DNA of 64,000 nt from positions 1 through 64,000 of the forward strand of contig FTLJ01000292.1 in the NCBI GenBank assembly GCA_900155495.1, in the 5' to 3' direction. Source of the stretch: Porogramme epimiltina (Eukaryota; Basidiomycota; Agaricomycetes; Polyporales; Polyporaceae). Position 1 is the first letter of the stretch. Each line of letters begins with the position of its first letter. Made by a program: the position numbers and the translations under genes. The notes under the pieces were generated by a model. That model was not told the origin of the DNA. It ran no database searches and saw only the letters and a list, made by a program, of their open reading frames with translations. Positions 12,971-46,412 of this stretch are shown here, piece after piece.

Positions 12971-14123
<1,153 letters not shown>

Positions 14124-14548: not shown

Positions 14549-16369
14549 CTATTTGACCTCCTCAGAGCTGCCGGCCTTGGCATTTGAGAGTGTCAGCAGG
14601 TGTTTTGGCGACTGCGCACGCATTTGGCGGAGTTGGCGCATCTCCATGACGGTAAGCGTGCCGCCCTCGGGAACTACTGAAATACTGTGGTCTGTGTGAT
14701 CAGATGTGTTGTCGCGTCGGCTCAGAGAGATCAGTGCCATGTTTCGCGGTCGATATGCGTTGGACGCCCCCGGGAGGTCCGAGTCTTGTAGAAGATATTC
14801 GCGCACGTTGAGGCAAAGCCGGCTTGACATGACGCAGGACAGGGCAACTGCGAAACCTATAGGGATTTCTACCTCCGAATCCTGGGTATCAAAGTCTGCA
14901 TGTCAATCATGACTATCAGCGGAGGGGGTGCTTAGTATACGCACCGGCCGGGTTAGGAAGATGATGGCGTTCGTCAAATATGTTGCAAAGATACTGTGAG
15001 CGACGACGATCAGAAGGGAGCTCTAAGGACAGCATAGAACATAACCAACGTCACAAAATACCATACGGAATCGCGCACAAGTATCTCCACGATCCTTCTC
15101 CCACTTAGAATCATGGACTGGCCGGGACGATAGGTTTTGAATCCACGGTACAGGGCCAACGCGCAAAGTACGCTCTCTGAGATGAGCATTGGTACCCAGA
15201 ACGCGAAGAACTCGCTTGGTAGACCAAATGGCACACAGATCGATGAGCCTGGCAGAGAGACTGGGACGGCTAGAGCAGCGTGTATTTGATTAATTCACAA
15301 AACAGAGAAATAGAGAGGCCCGTGATACGTGCCTGTGATCACGGATAGTGCTTTGCCCATCACGTAGGCGGATCCTATGGCGGCGCCGATGCTTATTATA
15401 GACATTGTGGCAAGGACGCGCTTGTTCCCGAAGTATAATGCGTAAAGTCGTAGCTGTAGGATAACTACCGCGCAATGTTAGGTCTTAAAATGAGGGTACT
15501 ACCGAGTGGATTACACTCACATTCGGCCAAAATGAACATGACAACTCCCGTAGTTCCTTGCCACCGAAACCAATGGATACAGCTGCCGCTGATGATTTGA
15601 AGGAGGTCATCGGAATATAGGGTGCGAGGACGTACAACTGTAAAAGATTATCCTCAGTGTCATGTATGAAAGGCTATAATCTGGACTTACTGAGGCGGAG
15701 AGACTATTCGAGGTAAACAATACTGGGGGGGGGAGATAGTCAGCATGGACTCGCTCAGTAGACGATCGATCTCTGGGGACGTGGCACTGACCATAGTTGT
15801 TGAATCTGTAGTGGCTCGTGAGTACTGCGCAGAGAGCAGGAGTAGATACGGAATACCCACATTACTATCGATAAAGCATAATATCGATTCTGGTTGGAGT
15901 ACGTCAGAGGCGTGAACGCCGGGCTGATGGAAAGACGCACCAGTAGGAAGAGGATCTTTCCTGTCGACCATTGTGCCCTCTGCAAGAGTGGTAATGGTCA
16001 GGCTTAAGACACAGAAGACCGCCATCGGCCGCAGCACTTGAAATGATGATTACCCAAATGAGCCGAATCTAATAACGTTGGTTGACGTCAGCTCATGTCA
16101 AACCAGCGGTAATGAGCGGTCGATCGGCTCACCTCTTGGTCTAGCGTCAATGCTTAATGTCACGATAACGAAAGTCCCGGATTATCAGGCAAGGGTTCCT
16201 GGCGCGGGGAGAGGAACGGCTCACCATGGTCGAATAGGATGATAGTTGTGCTGGCTACTGTAATACCGGCCTGTAAGCATTGCGAGAAATACAAGAGCAT
16301 AACACACTTACACTCGGCATAGCGGATCTTGAACACAGTGGCAAGAAGTTCGGGGGGGACAGCATGCAT
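14549..16369 (-). CDS. DUF6533 seven-helix membrane protein, copy 1
   Basis: A multi-exon gene of the basidiomycete DUF6533 family, membrane proteins with a seven-helix, receptor-like layout and no known function. The start (MHAVPPELLATVFKIRYAE) precedes a short exon ending IILFDH, which is the family's opening motif. Later blocks are FRWQGTTGVVMFILAE, a helix ending in an extracellular loop, WVPMLISESVLCALALYRG, RRIVEILVRDSVWYF, IFATYLTNAIIFLTRP, and the last exon (14895-14549) with EIPIGFAVALSCVMSSRLCLNVREYLL, the family's C-terminal signature. A cytosolic Ser-rich tail ends in SEEVK. Not every internal exon border was fixed. It shares order and spacing of blocks with the gene at 18611-20438, so the two are tandem paralogues. 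Confidence 0.78.
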
Positions 16370-17060: not shown

Positions 17061-18507
17061 ATCTAGATGAACATACACACCTGCCACAAGAGATGTGCGT
17101 GTCCTCACACGGGGCGCAGGAGAGCGCACGATGTTAATGGATCAGGTAAGGCACGTTACGATGTCTTCAACACTGCAGCCGTTGTCAGACCGTAGCAGCG
17201 GCGACTTCTTTCCGCGAAGCGCCGTCACTTCCAGGAAATCTGTGGTCCGTTGAATCTCGGTGGAATGGTTATGAGTTCGGCTGTATCCGCATTAGCTCGA
17301 CGAATGGACGGGATGCGCCACCATTCAAGAAGATGTGGGGACCTGAGGGTTGTCCTTACACAAGACTTGGGGCGCTGCGGTCTGTTTGATGGTGGCAAAC
17401 CCATCCAGGTTGGCGGATTTCCATCTGAGCTCCTCTCCGATCTTTAAGGACTATCTTCTACGGGGAATGGAAGGAAACTCAAAATTTTCTCTACCCCACG
17501 GTGCTAGACAACTTTGAATCTCGATTCTCTGCACTTGTCAATCCACTCACCATGGTCCATATGTGCAGCTATGCTTACAGAAAGAGGCTGACATGCCGCA
17601 GTCCTTCTCGCATCCTGATGAGTGGCCGTTGTTTTACGGCTACCCGGCGCATAGTACAGCGTTAGAAGCTCTTGACCACAAAGAGGCAATGCTCGTGGGA
17701 TGAGATGAGGGGATGTCTGATGTAGCGTTCAGATTGATTTTGAGGCTCGCACGGCCTGGGTCTTGCGAGTTCGCTGGTAGTTGGTGTCCCGAACATGGAA
17801 GCAGAGGCAGAGGACATGAGATCATGAATGATGACGAAAGAGGAAGAGCTGGGCTTCGGATTTCAGGAGTTCGAGGATAAGCGATGTCGACTATGATGAT
17901 CTCTTTGTCGAAGCAGGCGCTCTAAGCTCTTCCTACATACATACTTACATCAAACGGTGCATCATTCGCACGCTAAGCTACTAATGACACTTCTCCAGAT
18001 GACTATCAAAACTCATCTTCATAGCCTCGAGGATAGGATCATAAACAGCACGTCTACCAGCTGACTAGTTAAGTCAGAAGAAGAGGTTATCGCGGTTAAA
18101 GCGTAACTGTAAGATTGAAAGTAACAATGAACTAAGGTAGTGAGAATACAAATGCTAGTGCGCCGAGAAATGTAGATGGAAACAAGGGCGGACGAGTAAC
18201 GCGAATCCTAGAAATACACGAAATATGCCTGCATGGAACCCATTAAATGGACCGGAGACACGAGAAAGCAACTAGGGATGATTGTTAAAGTTGGAATGAA
18301 TGTGACGTGTGGAGGGAACGACGAGGGTTAGAGAAATCCAGGAGTGGGTGTATGCGCGTGCTGCGTGTGGAGGAGTTGGTAAATGACAGCAAACAGTGAC
18401 CAAGGATGCAATGAGGTGCCTCAAACAGACTCTAGTCGGGCACTACAGTACAGCACAACCATGAGCAATAGGGAGACAATAGCCGTATCCGCCGAGAGAG
18501 GAGAGTT

Positions 18508-18548
18508 GGGGGGGGGGGGGGGGGCCGGGGGANNGGGGGGGGGGGGGG
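18508..18548. repeat. G homopolymer tract with undetermined bases
   Basis: Nearly unbroken G over 41 positions, broken only by CC (18525-18526), an A (18532) and NN (18533-18534). It lies about 60 bases beyond the stop of DUF6533 copy 2. True length is uncertain because such tracts are prone to sequencing error. Confidence 0.8.
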
Positions 18549-18610
18549 TCCGAGGGAGGAACGCAACGCCTTGAGCTATAACGAGGGGCATAAAAGCCAC
18601 GGGCGCGCCT

Positions 18611-20438
18611 TCACTTGATGTCGAGCATGTCCGCGGGGTAATACATCTTCGAGAACTTGCGTCCCGCGTCAGGCACGCGCATCGTCCTGAGCTCGCGCAG
18701 CTCGACCTCGCTGAGCGCCTTGCCCTCGCCGACGACGACGGAGCCGGTGTGGCCCATGCTCGCGGTGCCCACCTCGCCAAACGAGACGAACGCGTTGCGC
18801 GACGACGCGGAGATGGGCGAGATGGGCGGAGACGAGAGCATCCCTCGGCTCTCAGACTGCTCGCGGATGAAGCCGCGTACGTTTAAGCACAGCCGGCTTG
18901 ACATGACGCATGAGAGGGACTGGGCGAACCCGATCGGGATTTCGACCTCTGCGCTCTGGCGGAATGGTGAGCAAGGGAATTGGGTGGTGGTGGTGGTAAA
19001 GACGTACTGGGCTTGTGAGGAAGATGACGGCGTTCGTGAGGTATGTTGCGAAGATTCTAGCGAAATGGGTCTGGTCAGCTTCTAGGCGAGATGCTTAAGA
19101 AAAGGTAGCGTCGCACATGAAGAAGTAGTAGAGCGAATCGCGGACGAGGATGTTTATGAGTTGCTTCCCGCTCTGCAACACGTTCTGTCCGCGTCGGTAG
19201 CCTCGTAGTCCTCGATACATCGCGCATGCACAATAGAAGCTCTCTGAGATGAGCATCGGGATCCAGAATGCGTAGAAGTCCTTCGGAATGCCTGTGGGCA
19301 CGCACACTGTGGTGTTGTCCAGGGGAAGATGGATAGATATGGCTGCAGCGGAGTGAACGGTTCGAGCTGTGAGGGGCCAACTAACAAAGAAGCGATGGGG
19401 CTGTCTTACCTCCGATGACCATGAGGGCTCTGACCATGACGTAAATGGAGCCCCCTGCCGCCCCCGCACATACGAGACCAATCATGAGCAGCACCCGTTT
19501 GTCCCGGAAGTACATGGCATACAAACGGAGCATGAGGATGACTGACATGGGGTTAGCTTGGTAGACTAGCTTGGGGGAATTAATTTGGTACTCACGTTCC
19601 GCTACGATGAACATGAAGATTCCTGTTGCCCCTTGCCATTTGACCCATCCAGCGCAACTGGTTTTGGTGTGAACATGAAGCGGACTAGAGAGGAGGCTCA
19701 GGACGAAACGTACAACTACGACTATAGTGAGTGTGTATCCCGGAGGCTCATGGGTCGTAGAAACTCACATCACTCTTAAAATGACTTGGGCTGAACAACA
19801 CTGTATCGCCCGTCAGTGGACATTTGGTTATGATACCCATGGGGTCTGCTAATCAGACTGACCGAAGTTGTTAAACCTGGTGTTACGAGCGTAAACATGA
19901 GCCAAGAGTGAAGGAAAACGATCGAGAAAACATACACAACAGGGACAAGGGCATAATAGCGATTCTTCCCTTTGAAGTAAGCCCCCGTACTGTCAGACAT
20001 CGAAGGGCAGGACGTACCACCAAGAACAGAACTTTCCCCAATGACCAGTCCGCATTCTACGACGATCCATCAGTTCCATCCTCACATTCTCTTCCGCGGC
20101 GTTGTCGTACCCAGATAAGGTTGATCTTCATGGGTCCCAGTTGTCTCAGATCCCGATGCATGCATGATTATCCCGATGACGCACCTCTTGATCCAGTGTA
20201 AGGACTGGGTGAAACACCAGCAACCGTCCTTCAACACATCTCAACATTCCGACTCGCCGGGAAGCACTCACGGTGATCAAACACAATGATCGCAGTGTTG
20301 GCCACTACAAGTACGTCATTGGCAAGTGTTGGTAAAGTATGCCACAGAGTAGCGGTACTCACATGCTGTATATCTGATCTTGGTGATTGTAGGGACTAGT
20401 TGTAGGAGGATTTGCGCCTCGAGAGGATTGACTGCCAT
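18611..20438 (-). CDS. DUF6533 seven-helix membrane protein, copy 2
   Basis: Second DUF6533 family gene. Exons include 20438-20363 (MAVNPLEAQILLQLVP), 20304-20272 (LANTAIIVFDH), 20204-20185 (LLTLDQE), a 15-nt exon 20125-20111 (INLIW), 20056-20018 (NADWSLGKVLFLV), 19964-19936 (NRYYALVPVV) and a 14-nt exon 19876-19863 (FNNFG). Together these spell the DUF6533 core: FDH-LLTL-E-NLIW, KVLFL-NRY. Downstream blocks are CAGWVKWQGATGIFMFIVAE, VILMLRLYAMYFRDKRVLL, FYAFWIPMLISESFYCACAM, VRDSLYYFFM and, in the last exon, EIPIGFAQSLSCVMSSRLCL. The tail is Ser-rich and ends DMLDIK. It is a paralogue of the gene at 14549-16369, same strand, same order. A sensory or receptor role is only a guess from topology. 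Confidence 0.82.
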
Positions 20439-26604: not shown

Positions 26605-27716
26605 TGCGCAGTTACAAGAGAGCCTTATGACCAGCACTTAGTCTAGGCTTCTTCGAGGGGAGGCGGGGAAAGCTGGGCCGGGTGACGAACGATCCCTCCA
26701 GGAAACTGTCCTTTATATAACGGCCGTGAAGAGAGCCTAATATGTCCCAAAGACGCGAAGGCGGTCGCAAGGCGTGGGTTGTAGAGGTCTCCAGACCAGT
26801 AGTAGTTCGGAGTCGAGCACCGTTGTCGGTCGAGAGGTCCGAAGGTGAGAGTGTGGGGTAAGTCCGAAATAGTCACGGTCGCGTGTCCGGCAATCTAATC
26901 GTTTAGAGTATTAGTTACTCAGTTACTCAATCAAAGCGTCTATCTAATCGTCGAGGACTCCGCAACGCTCGAGCCCCGTTCGAACCTTGTTGCTTTCTGA
27001 TCCAGCCGGGTCCGCTGCCTGCCTCGTTGCGCCTGCCACCCGCCTGCAGGCCAGGTTCTCGACTCTGCTCTCTATTTATCTGCTTCGTTCTACCGCCCGC
27101 CCTCGTGCGACCGCAAATCTTGCCCAACGGCCCCCAACTTCACGAGGTCCGGCATCACCGGTGCTTTACACGCCTTCCCATCTGAAAGGCGTCGCACCAA
27201 ACGTCTCAATACCAAAACGCTCGTAGCTTCCACGCAGCTTGCTACATCTACACGCAAGACGGCCCCAAACTGAACTCCCAGCTCGCACGCATTTACGGTT
27301 CCTGACGACAGGCACGATCGCCGCACTGCTTGGAGCAACGAACCAACGCCGACTCGGCCTGACCGTTCACGACATCACGAACGTCACGATTTTTAGTGCG
27401 TCCTCCATGTACGTCGTCCCTCATGCGCATACATTCCCAATCCCCGCACGAACTCACGCGAGTCCTCAGACCCTATCCATAGTGCTCGTCTCGGCCGCAC
27501 TGGGCGGCCTTAGGACTCCGCAGCCTACATTCCATTGCGATTCTTCCGGTACGTGTGTTCTTCCTGCGCATGGTGCCCACCCTCTCTCATCATTTCACTC
27601 GCCCCTTCATTCCCCGTCGTCATTCAGTGATCTGCACAAGTAGCACGCATTGCTCCTAATGAGCAGAGGTCCCCTTCCACCTTCGCGCATTCACATCACC
27701 TCGTACCCTCCGCGCG
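26605..27716. promoter_or_regulatory. Divergent promoter region
   Basis: A 1.1-kb gap between the starts of the methyltransferase gene (minus) and the F-box-like gene (plus). From about 27550 to 27715 the plus strand is rich in CT runs, a likely leader for the plus-strand gene. Short open frames on both strands are not supported as genes. Confidence 0.4.
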
Positions 27717-30700
27717 ATGAAGAGCTTCCTGCGCAAACGCACCAACTCCATCTCCACCCCATCCCCCGCCATTGTATCTGCGCCCGCACCTCTCGCGCCG
27801 GCGGAGACCCCACTATATGCGCGGTTTGCCTCCCCCCAGCGGGGCCAGGACCGGCCAGTCGTGTCAGGGCCCATCGCACTCGGCCCACGCAAACCCGCTC
27901 AAAGCCACGCGCCGCCACCACCCCAGGCCCCGGCCCCCGTACCTCGCGGAAGCTCTCCGCAGAAGACGTCACGAACGCTGGAGGAGCCGCCGAGGGGAAT
28001 ATTGAAGAAGACGGAGCAACCGCGGGAAGAGAGTGAGCGCGGGAGCGGCGGGCAGGAGGAGTTGGAACTGGAGCTGGAGCTGGACCGGAAACGGGAACTA
28101 GACCGGCAACAGGAGAGGGGGAGAGAGGCAAAGCGCACTTCGCGGTCCGGCGATGCGTTGGCGGGCTGGAGTGCGAGAGGAGGCGGTGGGGATGGCACAG
28201 CGGCTGTCGGTCATCCGGAGAGGACGGACGGTGAGCGCGTCTTGCTTCCCGCTCGCAAGGTCGCCCGGAGGGCGGACGCGGTCAAGGAAGGAGCGTCGCC
28301 AGAACGGAGCAGGGGCCTGTCACCAGACAAGGAACCCGCGTCCAGTTCAGGTCCGGGACCAGACGCTGTTGGGGATAGAGTGCTGCTTCCGGCCAGGAAA
28401 GTGGCCCACAAGGCGAGCACCAGACTCGAAGGCAGCAGCGGGAGACGAATAGACGAAGGCGGGAACACCTTGACCGGAGAGCGATCTCGTGCCGTGGTGT
28501 CACCTTCTACCTCTGGGACAAGCACTTCCTCTGCTCAAGTCGTCGTGATGACCGCGTCTCCCGACGGATGGGAGGAAAAGTTCTCGACCCCGAAACGCGC
28601 GCAGTTCAACGTCACCACCAGCCCGACGTCTCTCCGCGCCGCATCTCCCTCCCCCTCTCGTCCCGTCGCCGCGTCACACACGCTGTCCCCCCTGACACAC
28701 TCTCCGCGCGACAGAAGGAGGAATTTGTCTCCCGAGAAGTCCGCAGGCCCCTCAGTCCCCTCCCCGCAGACGCATTCGCCGCGTTCCGCGCGTAAAAAGG
28801 AACTATCGCCGGAGAAGACTTCGCGATCGCACCGAAAAGCAGGTAGAGAAGAGCAGCCAGCCGCTCAAGACGGCCGCGTATTGCTCCCTGCACGCAAAGT
28901 TACTCGGAGAGTCGCGGACACCGTTGACGACTCCGCCGAGTCTCCAGTAGGCCCTTTGGCGAAGTCTTCGGCTGTCAGGCCCAACGAGAAGCGAGCGAGT
29001 CTTGAGGTCACTGGAGGTAGGCCTCTTCAGTCTCTTCCCCCTTCTTTCCGAGGGTATCGTGATGTTGATGGAGCCTTCTCCTTTGTACCCCATCTCGTTA
29101 GGTTCTTCGTCTGTCATTCCGCCATCCACGGCTTTCCAAGCCGGTGACCACGACGTTCGTGCACACGACTTGCGAGGGCGAGTAGTAGGCGACCGCGTAC
29201 TCTTGCCCGCGAGAAAGGTTACCCGAAAGAACCCCCATCCCGACACTGCCCGCGATCGTCCAACAGAACCGGAGCGGACAGCCACTCACCCTCGGCAGGA
29301 CATTTCCCCCCGCCTCTCCGTGGACGGCCCGCATGATACAAGCTTCTTTCCGTTACGTGAAGGGCCCCGCCCAAGTTCCCCGTCCAACGTTAGTTCGACG
29401 CCCCAGCACCCCACCTCACCCGACTCCTCACGACAAGTAGTGCAACCCGTCAGCGTTCCGGACGGCTCCATTTCCAGCTTTTCCGCAAGCTCCAAAGTGG
29501 TCGCACCCAGTCTAGCGTCGCAACCCTCAACAAGCTCTGTGGAGACGACCGAAAAACAGCCAAGGCGGAGGAAGTATTCATTACGTGCGGCGTTTGGATT
29601 GCCCTCGTCCCGGACGGCATCAGACTCCGAAGACGCCAAGGTACGGAGCTTATTTCTAATGGACTGCGTCTGTTCTATTTTGTGCGGTTGTTTGGCCTTT
29701 GTCTTGTCGGTAGCGTCTGAGGAAGAACCCGTGATGTGCGGCGACGCGGTGGTGACGTCTTCTTCTCTCCGTTGTGTAGAGGGTAGAGTGGGAGGCAGAG
29801 GGGTGGTGTGCCGCATGTCCTCGCGCCTCGCACGTTGCTTAGTCGTGGGTGGCGAGCGTCGTGCGCCATGCGCTTCATCTCGAATGGCTTCGCCGGTGCT
29901 AAACACGTTCTTCTCGATCACGTGGGCGCGTCGAGACCGGGGAGACGATCCGCTGGAGAAGCTCTTTCCAATTTCCGCACTTTCTCCCATCCCCTGGCCT
30001 TGTATTCATTATATATGATGCTAACCTTGGCGTCGTGATGACAGCGTCCGGTCCACGCCTCATCAGGCCCGTCTTCGTCCACAACCTCTGCCCCATCCAC
30101 CACCGATCCGCCACACTCTGGTCTGCACACGGCTTCGCCCTCGTTTGCCATCCCTGCTTCTACGGATCCTGTCATTGAAGTTCGTCAGGTATGGTCACAT
30201 CATCAGGCGCATCGCCGGCCTTTGTTCATCTGGATGGCCGGCATGTTGCCCCTGCGTCAAAACTGACATCTTCGCTTCACTCAGCGCGTCCCGTCCGTCA
30301 GTCGTGCTCAACCGACCGAACTACAGCTCAAGTCGCTCCATCTTAGTGGATTCAATTTCCCTCTTGACGCACTCCTTAGTGGAGAAAAAGACGCGGAGCC
30401 CGAGGCCCCCCCTATCCCGCCGCTGCCTCCCACCTTACAACCGCCGCGGAGCCCAGCGACCTCGAACCGTCGCAGCATCACTGACGTTAGTTCTTCACAA
30501 GACATCGTTCCATCCAATCCGGCTGTCGTCGTTCCCGTTCAACAGCCCGCATCGGCAAAGAAGTTCCCGGTCGCAAGTGCGAACTCAAATACCCAGACTC
30601 CTCGCCCCTCTCCATCCCCTCCCGCGCCCACCCCTCCGCCCCATCCCCCTACTGCTTCAGCAGAGCACCCAGTGCGGAAAGGTGCGGTTCCTGTGCCACC

Positions 30701-33700
30701 TCGGAAGTCGAAGCCCTCGAAGAACCGCAGCATCGATATCGAACATAGCCTCCTCCCTCCCGAAGCAGACACCCGATATCCCCTCCCCTCTCGACGTTCA
30801 CCAACAGGCCAACCCTCTCAGTCCCACCCGCGCAAGCCCTCGCCTCCGCGCATGAAGCCCTCTGCCAGCTCTTCACGCTCGTCGCCCTCCGCGGACGAGC
30901 AGTTCTCCACGCCACATGGCCAACGCGGTCCCATGCAAGGGCGACCGCTCATCTTCGCCGCGATGGCTGCCGCAGAGGCCGAGGCGGAAATTGCGGAACC
31001 GAGGGCGTGGATGGCGGTTGCTACGTCTGAGCCGGAGCTGGAGGAGTTCCACGCGAACGCCGTGCAGACCGAGCACAGCAACGGTTCCAGCCAGTTCGTC
31101 AACGGGTACCCTACTCCTCGCTCCGCGTCACCGAACAAGCAGCCCTTTACGAACGCGCACGAAAGCGAAGGCGAGGAGAGAGGTGCGAGGATCGGATGGG
31201 GCCTCGGCGGCCAAACTGTCGACCGCGCGACGAGCAAAGAGGATGCGCGGCGTGCGCACAGTCCGCCACTCGCATCCAGCAATTTACCCACCCCGCCGGA
31301 GGCACAGCGACCGCGAGCGCGGAAGCTGAGCAAGTCCAAATCGCGCGTAGCCCGCATGGCGAACTCTTCCCAGTCTGCGCCGCAGACGCCTATACCTTCA
31401 GCCACGTTCGGTGCAAAGCCTCCCACTCCCGTAGAGGATGCGCCACCGTCCAGGAGTAAGGATGCTCCTCCCAGAGGCGGTGTCAAGGCCGTGGCGGGCT
31501 CGGGTGGCGCATCCGTCTCCGCGGTGTTGCCAGCTGCTTCCCGCAACGAGAAGCGCGGAGGTGAATCCCGACACCCACCGGGGGCATCGCGTTCTCCTCC
31601 ACCCCGCGTCATCTCTTCCGAGTCCCCTGTCCCGACCCGGCCAGTCAAGATACTTACCGAGCGACAAATGGAGAAGCTCAGCGCGACAAAAGGTCTCTCC
31701 ATGACCGGTACCCACGGATCGGGGCATAACGGCGTGCATCCGCAGCCGCGGCGTGTGGACCCGCCCGCCCCCGCAAAGTCTCACAGCCACTCTTCATCCT
31801 CACGCTTGCCTCCCGAGCCAGCGCCGATCGTTCAAACTTCCAATAATCATGTCTCCGACGACGTGCCTCCAGCTACGCCTCCGGGGCGGCCAACCGAGCT
31901 TGGAACTGTTGGCAGTCCGCGGCGAGATGAGAAGTCCCTTCCCGAGCCACCGTCATCCCCCGATGACTACGCGCAGTCTCGTTCCCGTCGCCGCGGGAAG
32001 CCCCTCGAAAAGGCACGACCGGAAGGTATCGAGAACGTCGCGCCGGCCGCGGACCCGACGCCCGACGACCTCAAGGAACCCACATTCTATCCTATTGAGA
32101 AACACTTGGCTGAACCGGCGCTCTTCGGCGCGCTCTTGTGGTATCTTTCGTTCACCGACTGGCTCGTGGTGTCCCATGCAAGCAAGTCCATTCGCGCGCT
32201 CTTGTATACTGAGCGCGAACTGGGAGAGCTCGCGCTTGAAAGGTTCCTACGGACAGTTGGATACGCCCGGTGGACGTTTCCGGAGAATGAGCCTCTCTCG
32301 CTCACCGCGCAGGTATGTGGATATATCCGGCGACATAAGAGCCGATATTAACAGCTATCTCAAGGACCTAAGCGCGTATATGAGAGGCGTCTCACTACCA
32401 CAACATCAGTTCGCGCGGTTTTCAGACGCATACCTTCACGCGCGCGATCGTCGTCAACGGGATTCTATCCAGATACACCTGCTCCAAGCCGCATGCCGCT
32501 CATATACGCGTGTTGTCCTTCGCCTCCATGCTCAAGCCGAGGCGGAGGCGCGCAGCGCTCCGGTTGCCGCGCGCGATGGAGCTCCCAGCCCCACGCGTGG
32601 ATGGGGCGGTTCAACCACATCCCTTAATCACATACCTAGCCAGGCCGCCGGCCGCCCAGGAAACAAAAGTTTCTCTCGCAGCTCAAGTCGCGCGGCCTCG
32701 CCAACGTCGGCCTTCAGTCATTCACAGCCAGGGCATACACGCTCAGGGTCAATCCCTGGTGTCAGTCTAGCACAAGGGGCTGTTGTGGCGGGGTTTCAGT
32801 CACCTCTGGTCCGTCTCCGGAGAGCGCCGTTGCTACAGGTGTTTGTGCCGTCACCGGAGGGCGACTGGTTGTCCGATGCAAGCGTGCTGGAGTGTGAACA
32901 GGAGCTGAAACGCGCGGGCGTTACACACTTGCTGCGCGCTGGTGACGTGATCTGGGATACTGCGGTTGGCGACGAAGGGAACGTAGGGCGGCTGGTTTGG
33001 GACGGCAACTATCTCATCGTGGGTCACTCTATCGTGGTTCTGTCAAGTAGTTCGCTCGCGCTCATACACCGTGATACACAGGATCTCGACTATGCTTACT
33101 CGCGAGCGGGCGATCTACCGCGATATCTCCCTACGCTAGCGTTTGCGCCATCGTATTTCCACCGCGTCATCCGTACCATGGGCAATCCAATCTGTCACAT
33201 TGATATTGCACCCTGGGGGGAGGAGATCGCTGCGAACTTGCAGCTACTCCAAGACAGGATGAAGATGGAGACGTAAGTTTGCGCTTTACGTATTCGCGGC
33301 CATCGCGCTGAAGCTCGTGGGACAGACCGCAAGGCGGACACCATATGGTCGTGCGGTGGGTACACCGCTCGTCATTCACGATCCGCCCCTCGTCAAACGG
33401 CAAGCCGATTCGCATATCTGTGCCGAAAAACGTCGGTCCAGGCCCTGCTCCAGGCGGCGCGTGGCTGGTCGACCCCGGCTGGTATGGCACTGTGGTCGTC
33501 GAAGCCGAGGGCACGAACGAGGGATTGGCCGACCTCCAAGCGCGTTGCCGTGGAGCATTCCCCATCCGAGCGGCTGGTGCGGCTCCGGGTGTCAGCTCGA
33601 GCCCTGACCGGGCGGCCAAGGAAGCAGCTAGGCGCATGGTGTTCAGGATCTTGCGGGAGAGAAGGTGCGGTGCGCTGTGTTCTCCACACTCTGCGTTGCT

Positions 33701-34212: not shown

Positions 34213-34825
34213 CTATTGAGCGCAAATATCCCCTATTCCACGGATCATGGAGGTGACATCTGACATGACTTCGGGGGTAGAGAGCTCGCGAAGCTTCCGC
34301 GCACGCTCCTCCCGGGTCTTCCCCGGTACATGGCGAGCGAGAACATTGTCTTGTCTCTGTATCTCTTCAGACAGACCTAGGATGGGGTTTTCTAGTCATC
34401 CCGCCAACGGATAGAGACAAAACATACATTGATCCTCAGCGCTCAGCGCGCTTTCCATCATCTCAGCTTGCACGCTCTTGAAAACGAGTGCTCCTCTAGA
34501 AGGGAAAAACATGAGTAGTTTCTCGGGAGACCGTAGCGACATGGACGACATACGACCCATCTGGCAACTTTACAAGTTGTAATTCGTCGAGGGCGATAGA
34601 GCAATTTACGTCTAGCTCGAATGAGCTCATGTTGCTGTAGTCTTCATCATTGAAAAGAAGGTTTGGAGAGAGGAAGATAGTGATGGTTTCGCATTGGAAG
34701 GGGGAGAGGACCTGGACAGAGAGTTTGTATTTGAACTCGGGTTTGCAGAGCTCCTTGAACTCCTTCACTGTAACGGTCCAGGGTGTGGGGTGTTGTGAGG
34801 CGGCGTTAGCAGATTTCCAATCCAT
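34213..34825 (-). CDS. RPA70N-like OB-fold protein, array member 1
   Basis: A 167-residue protein from exons 34825-34554, 34495-34428 and 34376-34213, intron phases 2 then 1. The start is MDWKSANAASQH. The domain (about residues 15-108) reads PWTVTVKEFKELCKPEFKYK, then TITIFLSPNLL and NCSIALDELQLVKLPDGS. After intron 1 comes the last strand, GALVFKSVQAEMM. The order of strands and the cysteine/hydrophobic-then-basic closing part follow the N-terminal OB fold of the large RPA subunit, but identity is very low and the usual DG loop is absent here. Exon 3 encodes a charged helical tail (EIQRQDNVLARHV, TREERARKLREL) that ends ICAQ. It is the most divergent member; membership rests mainly on the shared intron layout. 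Function is unknown. Confidence 0.68.
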
Positions 34826-36368
34826 GGTTGTGGAGATGAGCGGACTGAGCTGTGGGGAGGTGAAAACAATGGGAGGGCATTTATATCTCGACAACAGGAC
34901 GGTACAAGCGTCTCCGGATACTTGTATCCGGATGGACGATCGGTCAATAAGCCGCTGCCAAAACACACGAGCGTGCTCACCACCACAATGGGCGCTCCGT
35001 TCACGGTGTGTCCACGACGAGACATTGATGATGGGCAGGTATGTCCAATCCTTCCAGCCCGTTCCCGACATCGGTGACTCGGGACAGAAGACTTCGAAGG
35101 GATAACGTCAGGGAAGGAAACATACGGGTGATTGTGGAACGCGCTTGTGAGACGCAGGGTTCAGTGGCGTTGAGCTATCCGTGTCACGGAATGAGATGAG
35201 CCCCGAGATATCCGCAGTGCGCCTGAATAAAGTCTATTGGCCGGTTTACATAGGCCCAACACAGATAGGCTTACTGCATGACACGTGTCACGGTATTCTT
35301 CCATTCATCATTATGTACCTCAAGCAACGTATCGTCCTAGTCTCCCGTAGCTTTCTTCGTCTGTTAGTCGAGTGGATGGTGGACAGCCTCGTGAATGGAA
35401 GGGACTTACAAAGGTACTCAAGCCCGGCAACCGCCCGAGGGCTAGACGGGAACTTCCGGAACCAGGTCCAACACCGACCGAGGTGTGGTCTGATTGACCT
35501 GGTTGCACAGACTCGATTAGAATGATACGGCGTCATAAGGGGTAATCGGGTCAATCCTGTGAACGTCCCCCTGTACTTTGCAAGATGGCGACATCTTGAA
35601 CACGACTGTGATTACAATGCTGCCTCGCTGGCGATTCTTGACGTGGGCTGCCAGTTCATGAGACTAGATCAGTATGGCGTAGTGCATTAGAACATACATA
35701 GATTGACTATGTACTGTCGGTTAGAACACTAATCACCGAAAAGCCTCGTCTTTAGCATTTGCCATTGATTAAAAACCTTACGGCAGTGAACGTCGTCAGG
35801 GTCGCCAAGACCTGGTTAGAATAGGCCACGCGGCCCACTGTCATGTTCGATCACACCACAGCTACCATTGCGGGCTTTGGGTAAAAGGTGGGCTACCGAA
35901 GAAACGGCCAGCGATCGGAGAAGGGGCGAACTCCCATAGCAAGGTTCCATGTGGCAGGAACCAACTTGCGACGCAGTATACATTGAGTACGGCATCAATT
36001 TAGCCAGCATCTCGGACATAGCCGATGACGCCGAGGTTGGTAAGCAAAACGTGTCGCCTCCCAACACTCGGGCCCGGGGCCTTCTATCAGTGCTTGTTGT
36101 TCCGGTTCGCTGCAAAATGCACTATCCATCGCACTCATTCTAATTGCCATGTAATATACTCGATTAAGATGTATACACCAAGAGAACCGAAAGTAGAATT
36201 TCTCCTGTACTCCATTGCCGTTGGGGTACACTTCTCGGAACACTTCCTGTACACAAATGCGTGGTCATGTTGGAAATTGACGTATCCTGGTATTGTCAAA
36301 GTCAGTAACGCCCCCGGGGTTCTATTCATCACCGCCACTCGCCCATAGATTCCCATTTTCCCTCGACC
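34826..36368. other. Spacer between array members 1 and 2
   Basis: A 1.5-kb region without a supported gene. Open frames stay under 155 codons, lack family features, and do not contain the strand pattern of the neighbouring OB-fold genes. It could hold the promoter of member 1. Confidence 0.4.
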
Positions 36369-37034
36369 TCATTCGGCATCTGTGACCTGGTGCACCACCT
36401 CGTCGTATTGCACGGTCAAAACATCCGTCTGGAGACGGTTCAACTCGTCTGAAAGGTCTGGTTGTACAACCGCGTTAGTTTTATGGGGTCACCGGAGCAT
36501 GTTATCAATGGAAGCCTCACTCCAACGATCTCGAGGGAGAATTTCCAAGATATTAACGACGATTCTAGGGTGGGAGATATCAGCATCCGTCGAGCTCCTA
36601 CGCCGTAGTGTTTTCTGGTCTGAAATTTGTTACCTCGTTTGGCCCTCGAATTGCACTGGAGAGTACTTCCTCAATATGATTACGCATCCGTCCTGTAGTC
36701 GAACTTGTTCATCGCCGAGGTAGTGGCTCTGGACGAGGTCTTCGTGGCATTCGAGGAATACGGTCACTGTGTTGTTGTTGCCGTCCTTGATATCGCATTC
36801 GTGCTCGACATCAAAATTACCAACTTTGAACCCTGTAATCTCGCGTAGTTTGACCATCTGAACAATCGGGTTCTTGACTGGCCGATCCGAGTTTATACGC
36901 AAGACAGCGTCGTGATGGGGAGATGGGGTCTGCTGAGGGGGATCCATCGGCGAAGGTGAAGAGGTAGCTTCTGTGGGAGGATATGGAACGATAGGCCGTT
37001 GTTGTGTACCGTCGGCCCAGCGAGGTTTTATCAT
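36369..37034 (-). CDS. RPA70N-like OB-fold protein, array member 2
   Basis: A 177-residue protein from exons 37034-36634, 36564-36521 and 36457-36369, intron phases 2 then 1. A Pro/Ser-rich N-terminus of about 55 residues precedes the domain. The domain opens NPIVQMVKLREITGFKVG, close to the NP-VQVL-IR pattern that begins the RPA70 N-terminal OB fold. It continues with CDIKDGNNNTVTVFLEC (the conserved DG turn) and VRLQDGCVIILRKYSPVQF (the G-VI-L pattern of strand 4). Exon 2 supplies the last strand, IVVNILEILPRDRWN. Exon 3 supplies a short coiled-coil tail, LSDELNRLQTDVLTVQYDEV. An earlier in-frame ATG-free stretch makes MIKPRWADG the likely start. It would act in the nucleus if RPA-like, but no localisation signal is visible. 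Confidence 0.78.
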
Positions 37035-38553
37035 GTTCAGACCCCCGAGCGTTACCTGTTGCTCACCTAATGTTCGTACACATTGCAGCTACGAAAGGTG
37101 TAGGATCCACATACTGCGATGGCGCGCTGTAATGAAGGCCACCGCATGAGGCTACGTGGTTGACGGTGGTTGACCTTATCCTGGAAGGTGCCAGGCGTTG
37201 TTCCACCTTCACGACATCCTAATCTCATGCTGTGATACACATAAATGTCCAGGTGACCTTAAGACAGCCGCGAAATTCTAGGTAGTCAATGGTAGTTAGT
37301 ACACCAAGCAATATCCAAGCGATCGACACGCGGACGACTTCATGCGCATAGAAACTTGGTAATCGCTGGCATATGATCTATACCCTATGAAGTTTCAAAC
37401 GCTTGGAACACGGTCAGCCAATAGTTCGTGAGTACACATAGTTGCCTTACACGGCGGAGGTTGCCACACTTAGCACTCAGGTGACCGGTGTAGACACATT
37501 ACGTCGTTTCACTCTCTGCCACCAACGCTCAACAGCGCTTGTACGCTGCAGAAGCCTGTGATAACATATGACGTCCTATCAGCCTCAGAGGTTTAGAAAG
37601 ATATTGTACTCACGCGGTGAATGGAATCAGGGCAAGACGCGTTGCGCCTTCAACCACAATGACTGTGCCGGTGGTTCATCTGATGTCTATGTCTTTTTTT
37701 GGGCGATGCTCGTAGGATATTTGGAATGAAGAGGCTAAGCTGAGATGGAAATGAGATGATTTCACTTCATTTTATCCCAGGTCTTGCGCAGATATCCAAT
37801 GACCTTGAAGCGCCCATGCGGAGGCGGGGCGCTGCAAGTTAGCGCAGATGCCAGCATTGGGGCCGTATAACGTCTATAGAGCAACCCAAGAGCGATTCAG
37901 CAGGTCATTCATGGAATGAGGGACAACTCCGCCCGACAAAACCGCAACGCATCGGGTAATTTGGAAGTCATCCCCCGCGGTGACCCATGTCAGCTGCCAC
38001 CAGTGTAATCGAAAATGGCGCGAGCGAGCATTCCAAACGGTGGGGTCTACAGACGATAAAAGTTAGCGACGACAGCACCGACAAAGAGACTCCGGCACAG
38101 ACGACGCCTCGAAGCTACAAGCAAAAACACCTCTTACACCCCTATGAGATGGGGAGTGGTGAAAGATGCCAACCCAAGTTCAACTTCGTCGAGAGTTGAT
38201 GAAATTTTGTCACGTGGCCTTACCTCAGGCTGCTAGCGCCAAGTTGTAGCTTGACAGATGCGGTTCGCTGGTCTTGGCGCCATAGCTTGTTGCACGCCCC
38301 CTTAGTAGTCAGGCGCAAACAAGGTCCTATGTGTCGTCTCGCACCGCAAATTGCTTAGCTCTGACTAGTAACACTACACAGGATAAGCACAGCTGATAAA
38401 CCACTAGGATTTATAGGCTGACTTGTCTACCGCTGACTCCACACATCCCCCCCCTAAAGCGGGACTACGATCCTTGGTCTCACGAATATACGGTGATCAT
38501 ACAAAAAGGGTCAAGTACAAGCACTCGAAAACTGCCCCCTATAGACTTCCAGC
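37035..38553. other. Spacer between array members 2 and 3
   Basis: A 1.5-kb stretch of AT-richer sequence with almost no open frames over 60 codons. No gene, repeat or transposon signature is seen. It probably includes the promoter of member 2. Confidence 0.45.
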
Positions 38554-39260
38554 CTACTGATTGACTTCCCCATCACCGGACATGCCATCTGTGGTGACGC
38601 GCGCGAGCTCGTTAATCATATTCTGGGCCGGACGAATTGTCTCCGCGACGCCGTCGCGATCGATGTTGGCCAATACGCGTTCAGTCCTCCTCCTGCGGTC
38701 TTCTAGCCGCTGCAGCTCTTGTTCCTCTCTGTCAATCTTCAAGAGGATCTCTGACAACAATGTGAATGGTATCAGTTACAACCCCTACTTGGGAACGAGA
38801 AAATCTCTCACCGTCTGATTCAAGGGGAGTAGCCGATATTCCAGGGGATCCTTCGTATGTATTCAGCTCCTTCACCAACACTACGCTAATAAAAACGATG
38901 CCTCTCGGCTCAGTTCCACAGAAAATCTAGCAAGAAGTTGATCGTGTCTTACCTCTGATCATTGACAGCTGGCACTCGAATCATACGTTTGAGTATGATG
39001 GCGCCGTGAAGGTTTCCACCCCCATAACGCCTTCCATTGACCTCAAAATTCTGGGGGAGCACGAGCCGGGTCCTGCCTCCGGCGCCGTCGACGACAACGA
39101 GCTCGTACTGGACTATCAAGTTACCGAGGTTGAAAAGCTGAGGGAGCTCCGTGAAGTCTTCAATTGTGACCTCAGGCTCGGCCACGAGGATATCCAAGTC
39201 GTTAGGGTCGTTGAGACGGTGGCAGGGGGTACCTGCGGCAGGGGTGTGGTGTTGAGCCAT
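38554..39260 (-). CDS. RPA70N-like OB-fold protein, array member 3
   Basis: A 198-residue protein from exons 39260-38953, 38903-38812 and 38750-38554, intron phases 2 then 1. The start is MAQHHTPAAGTPCHRLND. The domain opens EPEVTIEDFTELPQLFNLG and continues with YELVVVDGAGGRTRLVLP, which has the DG turn. GGNLHGAIILKRMIRVP follows as the G-II-L-R pattern of RPA70N strand 4. Exon 2 gives the closing strand, GIVFISVVLVKELNTYEG, and a short linker. Exon 3 encodes a clear coiled coil, LLKIDREEQELQRLEDRRRR, with a tail ending GDGEVNQ. Of the five genes this shows the architecture most cleanly: N-terminal leader, OB fold, coiled coil. A role in binding peptides or single-stranded DNA is inferred from the fold only. 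Confidence 0.8.
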
Positions 39261-40378
39261 GTTCGCTGTGTCAAAGAGCGGCGTTTTGCTCTGGAGATCC
39301 GGGAGTATTTATCTGAAGCCATTCAGCGCCCTTGAGCTTGCCCGGATATTTGTCACACATGGTTAGGACGCTGAGACATTCTCTATGGACGAAGACTACT
39401 CAAATGGGCGACTAACTACCACACTGTCGCGGCACTTATAGCCGCGTATCCCAGAATGACATAGTGATGAACATCCAGATACAGTTATGATGCGCATAAC
39501 TTTGCATAATATCTATGGTTTCCAGAAGAATCACCCTCGACTTGGAGTTCATGCGGAGCGCAGTAAGGTCGAAGGGCATGCCTGCACTGTTAATCCACAC
39601 TCCGCAGCCTCTTTCCTTTATGAGGATATTCATATCCGCTCATATCGAAGCGGAACACAATCGGTTCGTGTCAAGTTATGACCGTCATGTAGGAATGTCA
39701 CCGTGCCGCATAGGTACGTGACACTCAGTAGAAAAAGAGGGACCAATCTTCGTCTGTGCTTGATTCTGTGATTGAGGACTTCTGACCCCCGAAGGTCGTC
39801 ACGCTGATATGTGATGAAGAAGCATAGAAGTGGTTCGTGCTCTTGATGGCTATGTAGCCGTAAAATCTTAGCAGAAGGTTCTAGACACGTAGAACCACAT
39901 GTGAGGGTGCCGAGATTCCGGGTCGCCCCGCCTTGTTTGTGGTCAAAGTCGACAGTCTAGCGTTCGATGGGCGTCAGGAAGGCTCTTAAGGCTCGCTGGC
40001 CTGATACGCCTAGATCTAGAATTAAGGTGAGGAAGCCGCTCCGACGTGAAGCGACGCTCACCACAATTTTGAGTAGCTGTCGGAAGCATATTCACACGTA
40101 AACAGGCCCTAAATAATACATATTGTCCAGACACTTGAACCTTACGACAAAGCGGAATCGGATGGGCAGCAGAGCCTTTGTGGGAAATGGATTGCATTGT
40201 GCAAAGGCGTCTCATGGACTTGGTCGTGTAGAATACGAGGTGTGAATTCGAGACCGACCACTCCGTATCTAACATATTCTGTAGGAAACACTGAAATAAT
40301 CTCGAACTGCTGTCTTATGTAGCGAGAAAAATTAATGCTGCTATCTCATTAAGTGAATCTAAAGCGCACCATTGCTCC
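39261..40378. other. Spacer between array members 3 and 4
   Basis: A 1.1-kb gap with no supported coding frame; the longest open frame, on the minus strand near 39943-40275, shows no similarity to its neighbours. Confidence 0.45.
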
Positions 40379-41043
40379 TCAGCCTCGCGTGGCTTCTTCA
40401 CCATGCCCTTGGATGAAGATTTGAAGCTCGGCCATGAGTCTAACTACTTCTTGTTGATGCCCCAAGGTGGGGGATATAACGTCGACCAATCGCTGAAATA
40501 CAGCCTGGGCATCCTGGTCCGCTTTCTCGCGCTGGACCTGCACACTGTGCAGTCGCTGTTGTAAGGCTACGAATTACATGGGGTGTTAAAGGGATAGCGG
40601 ATCGAATGAGGAGAACAGGAGCTAACTGAGCGGCTGGTGTTGACAGAAGACCTCGACGTCGTGAACGTAGATCATGTTGCTTTATAGGAGAACATAGCCA
40701 TTAGTATAGAGAGAAGACGTTGGCTATGGCTTATAAGCTACCTTGGAGGAGGGAGACGGAGCATGCGTTGCACCGTGATGATAGCACCGTTCGTGAAGGT
40801 GCAGTCTGAAGGTCCATTGACGCATTCGTGGCCTTTCACGGCTTCGCCCCGAAGGGCTACGTTGACGACTTGGCCGTTACCGTCTTCGAGAGTTGCATGA
40901 TAGTCAAGCTGTAGACCGTTGGTCAGGGTAGGAGCCGCGAGGGGCGTAAGGGTGTGGACGCGTAGAGTGGGGTTGGTTAACAGGACTGTATGGTCGGTCA
41001 GGTCACCGAGCCTGGCGCAGGTGTTGAGAGTGAGGGCGGCCAT
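40379..41043 (-). CDS. RPA70N-like OB-fold protein, array member 4
   Basis: A 180-residue protein from exons 41043-40742, 40679-40627 and 40566-40379, intron phases 2 then 1. The frame stays open upstream of the chosen ATG (MAALTLNTC) but contains no earlier ATG. The domain opens NPTLRVHTLTPLAAPTLTNG and continues with YHATLEDGNGQVVNVALRG, which has the DG turn. TFTNGAIITVQRMLRLPPP is the G-II-V-R pattern. Exon 2 gives the closing strand, NMIYVHDVEVFCQHQPL, which lines up with VRDFELVNV of member 5. Exon 3 encodes a glutamine-rich coiled coil, LQQRLHSVQVQREKADQDAQ, and a second helix LGHQQEVVRLMAELQIFI. The donors GTAGCT and GTTAGC are less usual but keep the frame. Confidence 0.78.
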
Positions 41044-42327
41044 GACTGAGCTGCTATGGATGCTGTCGTCGTAGGGCTCTTGCTGAGACACTTATATGCT
41101 GTCCCAGAGACTCGAACGAAGTCGCCCTAACGAATTCGGACATCCTCTGAGAAACGCGGGAGAGCCACGGAACGTTTCTGGGGTGAGAACGACCGGGACA
41201 CTCCTGGCAAAATGGGAGGCACATCGACTTGTCGTTACCGGCGCTCCCAGACGGTCACATCGTCCATGCTACCGTGTAAACTGTCAAACAGCCAGATGAG
41301 CCACTATGCCAAGGGGGGAATGCGGCTGAGATGCCTCTTGACTAAACACCTTTGGCTATGAGCGGAACCGAGCGCGATTTCCTCCCACCGCAGGCTGTCA
41401 GCCCCCGACGCCCTACGTTGCCACAAGCCTAGCGAAGGTTGAGGGAAGCAAAAGGCTGTTCCTACGTGAAGTGGATTTGATTAGCACTTGCATCTTCGTA
41501 CTCGGACTGTCCCATGCCGGCTGCACCCAGCAGGAGTGCGGGGACGGATTAAAATTTTTGGTCCATGTTCCTCTCTTGCACGCAAGTTCGCTGTCGTTAC
41601 GTCACCGTGCTAGTGTACAATGAAGACAGTATGCGCCAGTATCGAGTACGGCATGTCGACACGGCAAGTAGACTAATGCCGAACTTGCCGTTATTCGAAC
41701 GTGCGATCATGATTAGCATTGCAATTGCATGCAGGGAAAGTGGACTTTGGCGGCATCCCGCTTACCATAAGTTCCGTTCCAGCCCGGAGTTTGCACCTGT
41801 CTCTGGAACGCCAACATTGCATAGGTGAATGGAGGCTATTAGTTCCACCGTGGTGCAGCGACAGAAAAGCTCACTGCGTAACATGATCCCACTTGCTCCC
41901 AATTGTGCTAGCGTTACGCGCGTCACATATTATCAGGGTTTGAACGGATATTATTTGGGGTAATTTATAGGACATGGCACAGTTCATTTGTTCACTTGCA
42001 TGTGTTCAGTGAAATATCCAGTGATGCCGCGACGCAAACCTGAAATATAGTGTCAGAATAGCCGGATAGGGGATCATCGATCACTTCCCGTAACGAGATC
42101 TAGAAAAGGTACGGCTGATAACTAAGAAGCGCGGAGATGAGGCTTATTATGTCACAACACATGTTCTTGTCCATGTGGTTACAGGTGCGAGCGGAGGGTG
42201 TCCCAATGAATGACTGCTAAAGATGATGTAGCACACAGCCGCAATAATACAATATATTACACACCCAATTTGCCGATATCCTCAGAATGGACATGTTTGG
42301 GCCACCGGAAGCCCGGCGCACGGAGCG
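41044..42327. other. Spacer between array members 4 and 5
   Basis: A 1.3-kb gap with no gene recognised; the only open frame over 80 codons (around 41565-41828, plus) has no family features. It presumably carries the promoter of member 4. Confidence 0.45.
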
Positions 42328-44671
42328 CTATATTGGGCTGACACTCATTACGGAGTCGGTTAAGTCCTCGATGCGCTCCATGACCTCCAGAACAGCGGGC
42401 GCGATCGCATCCCTCCTGTGTAAGTCGGCGCATACGTGCGCGAGGGCACGCTCTAGAACGAGCCGGTTCTGACGCTCCTCCTGGAGACGCATTTCGGCTA
42501 GGAGGCGCTGGGCACGCTCCTTCTTGAGCGCCGCAGCCGCAGCTCCGTCAACATCAAGCACTGAATCGGTAACAATTAGTATCACTTGCGGGTATAGTAG
42601 ATTATGCGGAGCGTAGCTCTGGGGCACTCACGCGTGGGGGGGCTCATCGAGTGGGGCACCGAGTGGACCGATGGTGACTCGAGGGCGTTGGACGAGAGCT
42701 TCATCGTGATCTCCGCCACCCTCTTAGGACGTTCAGGCCGCACGTTGACAAGCTCGAAGTCGCGAACCAGGACGGCACTGTCGGGAAGGCGGGTAGAACG
42801 TTCGTGAGCGGGCGATAGTAATAATAGAGTCGAAAGTACCAGGCATCGCCAGGCTCGAGCCTGTTAATGTTCTTGAGCTTCGCGACTGAGCCAATTTGCA
42901 GGTGGTCCGCATTCCCGAAGCCGGCGATACGGCCCTGTAGCGTAGGTGCGAGTGCGATCCATACGTATCCACGGCCGTCCGTGACATACGCTTCGTACGC
43001 TTTCGCTTGATTGGGATGTCCGACCGGCCCCGGATCAACGCCTCGTAGAACGAGGATCTGAACGACAGGGCATGCGGACAAGATGGTGTCCTCAGAGCGG
43101 TCTCGGAGCCGGTCACACGAACCGGCCGTGAGGGATATTGCTGGCGGCGAATAGGATGGCGCTGCCTTTGGAAGAGACGGAGCCGCTGGCGAGAGCGGAG
43201 CGCCGTGATCAGTGGCAGACCACCGACTGGGCGCCGGCGATCGTTGAACAGGGGCGGGGTCCGAATGTTCCTGCGAAGTGGAGCCGCTGAGAGGCCACAA
43301 AAGAGAAACATCGCGTAATAACTCACCGTCATAGTATGTACGGAAGGGGCAAGACTAGGGTTCGAAGACATTCCTGGGACGCACCCACCGCTATCCGAAG
43401 GTGCGCTCCAACGACCAAGTTCCGGTGCCGCCATCATGCCGCCCGCTGGAGACACCGTCGGAGTCCCGGCTGAAGATATCGTCCGGACGCTGTCTAGAGG
43501 AGCCGCCCGTGGACTGCCTGACGACGTGGCGGTAGAAGGCGTTATAGGCTGTCTTGGAGTGGTCGCGGCCATCATCGGGAATGCACCTTTGTTGGTCGCT
43601 CCGCTGCCCGATACACCGTGTTCCTGTAGCTGGACAGATGGAAGCACAGGCTGAGCTGGTGAGGCTTTCGGAGGCTGCTGTGGAGCAGGGTGCGCATGTG
43701 CCCTATGTGATAGCTCCACAACCTTGGTTTGTTGTGTCCCTTCTCGCGACTGTGCCGGGGTGTGGGCTGGTAATGTTGGGCGAGGCCGCGATGTGACTGG
43801 TACCACTACCTCTCCACCTGCGCTAGTAGGCGGAAGTCCAGATCGCGTTGCTGGATTTAGAACTTCGCGCGCACGATCCATGGTGCCTGTGTCAGTTGAC
43901 CGGGAGGTTCTGGCCGTCTGTGGTTGAGACGTGGATGCAATGGTCCTGGCGCTGCTCTGAGGTGGCCGTTGAGCGGGGCCACTGACCGCAACGTTGGCGT
44001 TGGAAGTCGCGCGGGAATGTTCCGTTTCTGGTGGAACGTCTTTAGTGGGCAGCACTGCACCTGTATTCCTTGGACGAAAAAGTGGGACTTCCGGGGCTAA
44101 CTTGTCCATATCCCATACCCGGCCGCTGGCGAGTGGGGAGTTAGCGCAGGTAAATCGGAATACGCAACACACGAGACAATACGTACTCTTCACTGTAAAA
44201 GATGTTTGCTCTGGAACCACGCTGTTATTTCTGCGCCTTAATGTTGACGATTCGATACGCACATCATACGTTCCGACAGTGTATCTTTGACCTCTTGCTG
44301 AGTTAATGCTCGCCGAACCAAGTACTGGATGGCGTAACAGATATCCTACGAAGACGAAACGGTCAGTGAGGCGAGCGCGTCTCAGAAGAACAGAAGGTGC
44401 TCACTATGTGCAGCCGGGGGTATGTACCCCTAACTTGGCCAGTTCCCCATACGACTTTACATTCTGTCAAAGGCATTGTGCCTAAAGAGAGCGCTTGTAG
44501 ATCCGCCCGGAATTCATCCACAATGGACGCTTCCATCGAATCTCTTCTTGATGGGTCCTTGGTTGTCTGTAGCGCACGTGCTCGGCTGCCCATATACTGG
44601 ATCCACACTCCTGGCTGTTTGCGTTCCGGGGTATTCACATGGCCAGCGTCCCGTGCGAGTGATTGTGACAT
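42328..44671 (-). CDS. Long RPA70N-like OB-fold protein with Ser/Pro-rich linker, array member 5
   Basis: A 655-residue protein from exons 44671-44428, 44297-44183, 44125-43327, 43270-42840, 42777-42632 and 42560-42328, all in frame. Residues 1 to about 130 form an unknown N-terminal region (GVWIQYMGSRARALQ and a strand-rich YTVGTYDVRIESSTLRRR). Residues about 135-445 are a Ser/Thr/Pro/Ala-rich disordered linker. The OB fold follows and is the clearest in the array: CPVVQILVLRGVDPGPVGHP, then YVTDGRGYVWIALAP and HLQIGSVAKLKNINRLEPGD, closing with AVLVRDFELVNV. This matches the RPA70 N-terminal domain pattern (P-VQVL, DG turn, L--GS---L, VL--FELV). The C-terminal exon is a charged coiled coil, LKKERAQRLLAEMRLQEERQ. 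The last two introns have the same phases (2, 1) and places as in the four short paralogues. The first intron (130 nt) is the weakest border. Confidence 0.78.
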
Positions 44672-45533: not shown

Positions 45534-46412
45534 TCAATATCCGACGCCGATGAGGTAGTCAGCGAGGCCCTCGACTATAGGGGTGCACTCGGGGGCCTGG
45601 AGCGGCGCGGAGTACTCAGCGACGAGGACTGCCTGCTTCGTCTTGACGAGGACACAGCCGTCGGCCTGTACACAGAAGCCGCGAGAACGGTGGTCAGCGC
45701 ACGCGTAACGCATGGCAGCGGACAGCAGTCTGGGAAGAGAAGGCAGGACAGGGGCAGTGGGCCAGCGCGTGCGCCCCGCTCGACGCAAGTGGCGATCATG
45801 GAAAAACAAACGTGCGGCACTCACCCCCTTCTTCCCGTACACGCTCCGCTCGTTCGCAGAAAGGGTGAAGTACTTCGTGCCCGCGAGCCGGATGCCGTGC
45901 TCGCGCGCCTCGGCGGGGTTGCTGAACGCGCCGAGAACCTTTTGCTGCTCCTCCGTCGAGAGCTATCAAGGAGGGGCGGGGTTTGACAAGGTTCGAGCCG
46001 AAGGACGGGGAGCGGGAAGGAGAAGGGGCGTGCGGGGTTGGAGAACGGGAGAGAAGGACCACAAAGTGAGGGTTCCGACGTCAAGATCGCGTTGCGAAGG
46101 TTGCAAGTGGTGTTCATCAGCTTCATGGATCTGCGAGCAGCATTATGCTCCGAGCCGAGCGCACCGTGTACCCCTGGGACGCTGCCCACACGCCGCCGCC
46201 GAGGCCGACGATAGCAGCCTTCGTGACCTTGCCCGTCCCGATGAGATTGGTGTCGACGTACGCTGAGCGGCCGCAAGAAGAGCGCGGCCGGGAGAAATCG
46301 GTATCAGAATGTGGACATGGGCGGGGTGGTGGGGTGGACAAGGGCCGCGCGCGCTCGGACGCGGGACGCGCACACCGGGCGCTCGGCCTTTAGACTCACA
46401 TTGCCAGGACAT
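45534..46412 (-). CDS. PFY1: Profilin
   Basis: Small actin-monomer and poly-proline binding protein that promotes actin assembly with formins. Exons 46412-46400 (13 nt), 46262-46165, 45962-45825 and 45665-45534 give 126 residues, the exact fungal profilin length. The start MSWQSYVDTNLIGTGKVTKA is the family signature. The middle part is GGVWAASQGYTLSTEEQQKV, then GIRLAGTKYFTLSANERSVY and GKKGADGCVLVKTKQAVLV. The C-terminus EGLADYLIGVGY is the conserved helix end with the aromatic poly-proline contacts. The very short first exon, cut after the fourth codon, is common in fungal profilin genes. Single-copy housekeeping gene; no oddities. Confidence 0.97.

Follow-up and report, generated by a model that had tools for sequence, protein, structure and literature searches.

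One question raised by the 64,000-nucleotide stretch of Porogramme epimiltina DNA analysed here (contig FTLJ01000292.1, positions 1 to 64,000; hereafter the window) is where the five genes lying head to tail on its minus strand came from and what their products may do. An earlier note on this DNA had taken them for an expanded family of stand-alone proteins resembling RPA70N, the N-terminal oligonucleotide/oligosaccharide-binding (OB) domain of the large subunit of replication protein A (RPA); this domain is also known as DBD-F and corresponds to the Pfam family Rep-A_N (PF04057). That reading was supported by an intron in common with the RPA70 gene of the host genome, by profiles built with individual members held out and by the fold predicted for one of the proteins. 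Descent from RPA70N is very probable for four of the genes (B to E below). The genes were modelled as follows (window positions):

34213-34825, minus strand: gene A (exons 34825-34554, 34495-34428 and 34376-34213), OB-like domain and charged tail.
36369-37034, minus strand: gene B (exons 37034-36634, 36564-36521 and 36457-36369), proline/serine-rich start, OB domain and short tail.
38554-39260, minus strand: gene C (exons 39260-38953, 38885-38812 and 38750-38554), OB domain and charged tail.
40379-41043, minus strand: gene D (exons 41043-40742, 40679-40627 and 40566-40379), OB domain and charged tail.
42328-43117, minus strand: well-supported core of gene E, with the OB domain at 43117-42840 and the start of 42777-42632, and the charged tail at 42560-42328.
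43118-44671, minus strand: proposed 5' part of gene E, a proline/serine-rich region and first exons, with an uncertain start codon.

Each gene encodes one RPA70N-like OB domain followed by a charged tail. The order, strand and coordinates of the five genes given earlier were confirmed; the spacers measured 1543, 1519, 1118 and 1284 nt, in line with the 1.1-1.5 kb claimed, and the DG turn of the domain was found in B, C, D and E and not in A, which reproduces the earlier count of four out of five. These models, whose expression we infer, were predicted by hand from the sequence with GT-AG introns of 51-82 nt. Splicing gave open frames of 167 (A), 177 (B), 192 (C), 180 (D) and 671 (E) amino acids, with three exons in each of the models of A to D.

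Codon usage was scored after training on 1725 codons taken from four parts of the window; one of these parts was the proline-rich frame found at 30-32 kb, which is itself of unproven coding status. The spacers scored lower than every one of the five genes, and the proposed frame ranked first of the six in A, B, D and E; in gene C an antisense frame was slightly ahead (-0.01 vs -0.04 for the proposed frame). Within the long model of gene E, residues 480-671, comprising the OB domain and the tail, were coding-like, residues 135-402 were ambiguous and residues 1-135 resembled spacer. The core of the gene placed earlier at 42328-44671 was thus retained, whereas its 5' end at 44671 is doubtful, because residues 1-135 score like spacer, and the long model is probably over-extended.

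Could these genes be decaying, non-expressed duplicates? Divergence among the paralogues is high (16-26% identity to D) and the 5' part of E looks non-coding. Against this, open frames and GT-AG introns could be modelled in 5/5 genes, and the environmental protein P0004, a relative of A, is 73% identical to exon 1 of that gene. TATA-like boxes were also present 53-60 nt upstream of the ATG in A (TATAAAT at -60), C (GATAAAT at -53) and D (TATAAGT at -53), and none was found upstream of B and E; the motif set, which was broadened post hoc, is matched in 0.027 of 25-nt spacer windows. We regard decay as highly improbable.

In all five genes a phase-2 intron lies ahead of the last OB strand, separating it from the body of the domain, and a phase-1 intron lies between the last strand with its linker and the charged tail:

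34496-34553, minus strand: phase-2 intron of A, before the last OB strand.
36565-36633, minus strand: phase-2 intron of B, before the last OB strand; the environmental proteins P0001-P0003 stop at the same residue.
38886-38952, minus strand: phase-2 intron of C, before the last OB strand.
40680-40741, minus strand: phase-2 intron of D, before the last OB strand.
42778-42839, minus strand: phase-2 intron of E, before the last OB strand.
34377-34427, minus strand: phase-1 intron of A, before the tail.
36458-36520, minus strand: phase-1 intron of B, before the tail.
38751-38811, minus strand: phase-1 intron of C, before the tail.
40567-40626, minus strand: phase-1 intron of D, before the tail.
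42561-42631, minus strand: phase-1 intron of E, before the tail.

The host RPA70 gene (contig C106) contains a phase-2 intron after ...FIQGR, at the position matching the phase-2 intron of A to E. This intron, common to the array and to host RPA70 in both position and phase, is the best new evidence for descent from RPA70. The C-x-x-L-x-D motif at the start of host RPA70 is likewise found in C, D and E.

RPA70 itself was identified by searching the genome (41.9 Mb, 926 contigs) with Rep-A_N at an E-value of 0.001. One match was obtained, on contig C106, and it is followed there by the only REPA_OB_2 match, indicating that this is the true RPA70. When the five spliced proteins were compared with the Pfam profile, B alone was matched, with 17.6 bits (E 0.004) against a cut-off of 26.7 bits, and A, C, D and E gave no match. 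The RPA70N likeness suggested earlier for the whole array was recovered by this search in B, under the cut-off, and not in the other four, and a family that falls below this threshold is missed by Pfam searches. Profiles built from the other copies plus RPA70, with one member held out each time, were more informative: among the open reading frames (ORFs) of the window they recovered B at 2.9e-8, C at 1.5e-8, D at 1.1e-7 and E at 4e-6, and A was absent from the best 8 matches. No further family member was seen among the window ORFs, the next profile match having an E-value of 0.31.

One dispersed copy, F, was found outside the array on contig C371 (L012 = G000:C371:12000-21900, about 5417-4900, minus strand). 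B found it in the genome search at E 3.7e-5, F found B back at 1.2e-4, and the profile recovered F at 1.8e-8 when it was held out. By reading of the sequence both introns are present in F, and only 11 residues follow the second, so that it has nearly no tail. Genome searches with A, C, D and E yielded no extra copies among the best candidates scored.

The relationship was also examined in the reverse direction. With three family profiles from which RPA70 had been left out, exon 1 of RPA70 was the top non-member among 1918 ORFs (E 0.002-0.01); the ORFs that came next scored 0.28-0.66, and two of them were second exons of members. None of 500 shuffles was as good as the family profile against each of three RPA70 sequences. 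The opposite test, with an RPA70N profile built on three sequences, gave equally good scores in 0 (E), 1 (B), 11 (D), 34 (C), 88 (F) and 246 (A) of 500 shuffles. Alignment of the family and RPA70N profiles with hhalign was weak (probability 12.6%, E 0.0023). Searched by sequence against the PDB, the B domain had no match; the family profile returned mostly DARPins there, RPA70N being absent from the best 60 matches. Taken together, descent is well supported for B to E and for F, and less so for A, the most divergent member, whose membership we infer from its introns and position only.

The AlphaFold2 model of B has five strands forming an OB barrel, near RPA70N and TPP1 in the fold comparison with modest scores, which agrees with the fold proposed earlier, whereas the model of A exon 1, computed with one homologue, was of low confidence (mean pLDDT 48.8). 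A Foldseek search against PDB and viral models gave no match at E <=0.001. Since RPA70N and TPP1 tie for B, an origin from another OB lineage, such as this protein of the telomere complex, had to be weighed. Identity to B is 21-22% for RPA70N and 13-14% for TPP1 in the five matches listed, and the intron position and phase are common with RPA70, the gene covered by that comparison. An origin from another OB lineage is very unlikely, and the array is best compared with RPA70N, with which it shares the OB fold of B, the strand pattern and the phase-2 intron before the last strand.

What sets the array apart from RPA70N is, first, its architecture. The proteins stand alone and carry an added tail: A to E end after the tail and lack the single-stranded DNA-binding domains DBD-A, DBD-B and DBD-C, REPA_OB_2 being matched on C106 only. 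Second, the basic residues of the groove are mostly lost. In order to follow these residues, R31, R41, R43 and R91 were placed on the human sequence where we take them to lie, and the matching positions in the family were read from alignments and by eye. Their equivalents are K, R, R and R in host RPA70; R, E, E and T in B; R, A, E and a lost position in E; and, in each case with the last position lost, T, Q and E in C, T, D and H in D, and T, D and T in F. In A they read K, K, K and lost (K-Y-K at 41-43) on one possible alignment, the alignment of this protein being unstable between runs. The complete set is kept by 0/6 of the stand-alone copies, and at position 31 a basic residue remains in B and E and perhaps in A. 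The OB domain carries a net charge of -6 in A and B, -2 in C, -3 in D and 0 in E and F; the value is +3 for host RPA70 and +1 for the human stretch.

According to PMC10479964, RPA70N is a protein-interaction domain; the human protein binds acidic, hydrophobic peptides in its groove and side pocket, and mutation of R31, R41, R43 or R91 reduced binding of a HelB peptide. As these basic residues are mostly replaced in the family, the usual binding of checkpoint peptides cannot be assumed. The suggestion that the proteins act in repair as competitors or partners through acidic peptides was accordingly not upheld, given the replaced arginines and domain charges of 0 to -6. A related possibility is that the stand-alone domains serve as decoys or modulators, occupying the partners of RPA70N, or RPA, and thereby tuning checkpoint or repair. 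It would fit the RPA70N descent, the interaction role of the domain described in the same source and the basic residue at position 31 of B, E and perhaps A; with the full arginine set in no member and domains that are neutral to acidic, we consider it quite unlikely. A precedent for such a loss is plant RPA1B: in this RPA1 group Binding Surface I, the basic cleft, is described as lost (PMC4731521). The likeness lies in an RPA70N domain without this cleft; RPA1B differs in being an RPA1 protein that keeps its other domains, whereas the array consists of stand-alone domains.

Because the groove that grips acidic peptides has lost most of its arginines, interaction modules are the most likely working explanation: A to E somewhat more probably than otherwise act as stand-alone protein-interaction modules of changed specificity. 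The 5' end of the RPA70 gene, with the N-terminal OB domain and its intron, would have been copied, and a second intron followed by a short exon for a charged tail would have been added to the copy; the tailed copy would then have been duplicated in tandem and have diverged. The products would be small stand-alone OB proteins without the single-stranded DNA-binding and trimerisation domains of RPA, whose OB groove may, with a new specificity, hold a peptide of a partner, and whose tail may join the copies to one another or to a partner. Of the charged coiled-coil tail described before, the charge was confirmed and a helical structure is plausible; common ancestry of the tails was not demonstrated. 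Held-out tail profiles were no better than shuffles (53-172 of 500 shuffles scored equally well), and homology among the tails is therefore not claimed.

Variation among environmental proteins was then considered. P0001-P0003 are close relatives of B, and P0005 is probably a relative of the A tail, which it resembles by eye with a profile E-value of only 0.087. P0002 is identical to B across residues 56-134. P0003 is changed in 6/7 residues of the stretch 61-67, which corresponds to the strand edge where R31 lies in human RPA70N. Between P0001 and P0002 there is no difference across residues 30-60, and there are 15 differences in the 74 positions from 61 to 134. As a separate observation, these environmental relatives of B appear to be mosaics: the start is common to P0001 and P0002, and the OB domain is not.

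Such variation would be expected of a diversifying recognition cluster, in which the OB groove is a ligand-binding surface under diversifying selection, for self/non-self discrimination or in an arms race with a mobile element or virus. The tandem array of strongly diverged paralogues and the contrast between the conserved start and the variable domain of P0001 and P0002 speak for it, as does the finding that sites variable among P0001-P0003 fall on 6/10 groove-equivalent positions vs 22/79 overall (P 0.024), in a post hoc test with a list and mapping of ten positions chosen by ourselves and three sequences of uncertain origin. On the other side, P0001-P0003 may be paralogues or come from other species, and killer, toxin and receptor domains were absent from a Pfam scan of 20 flanking ORFs, 12 of which had no match at all. 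The other 8 matched ordinary families: tRNA synthetase class II, DUF5648, triosephosphate isomerase, phosphomannose isomerase, OPT transporter, WD40/neurobeachin, Arm_4 and 2-oxoacid dehydrogenase E1. Selection of this kind appears fairly unlikely. Similarly, it is unlikely that the array forms a recognition locus, in which the RPA70N groove would have become a polymorphic, rapidly changing surface that recognises self/non-self or invader proteins. That the variation of the B relatives lies mostly within the OB domain is a lead towards a recognition role and is not evidence of one.

A further alternative is that the genes are leftovers of Helitrons or other mobile elements that captured an RPA fragment. 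RPA homologues are carried by plant Helitrons (PMC4683698), and these resemble the array in being extra RPA-derived genes beyond the core complex; the plant genes, as described there, are located in transposons, whereas Helitron_like_N is not among the matches listed on the array contig. The present genome has at least five Helitron_like_N loci, none of those listed being on the array contig or C371, where no search for Helitron ends was made. The array genes retain introns and frames, and the Helitrons of Pleurotus were without RPA domains (PMC4289320). Only short, imperfect repeats were seen at 30-48 kb and no long ones were found there, which also argues against mobile-element leftovers and because of which duplication of the array is probably old. 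An origin of this kind is judged highly improbable. The Helitron_like_N matches listed, on contigs C30, C602, C4, C781 and C478, lie within open frames of 1681-2458 amino acids.

As regards the surroundings, the ORF adjoining the array at 45534-45962 (minus strand) presumably encodes a profilin-like protein, and a search for tRNA genes found none. Long open frames rich in proline and serine (494, 355, 694 and 523 amino acids from stop to stop), none with a Pfam match, lie beside the array at 27663-33273 on the plus strand. Elsewhere in the window, the minus strand carries two tandem paralogues unrelated to the array, at 13900-15500 and 18300-19900, whose listed translated stretches are 52-84% alike.

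The earlier statement that no fungal system of this form has been described agrees with our searches of the open-access literature, which found none, though these were weak and leave the absence unproven. Docking in the DNA-damage response makes wide use of RPA70N, a module that ordinarily belongs to RPA; in this array the domain stands apart from RPA, exists in several copies, bears a tail and has lost most of its canonical binding residues. If expressed, these genes would be natural experiments on the acquisition of new partners by an essential docking groove, and fungi would have in them a candidate system for recognition or regulation.
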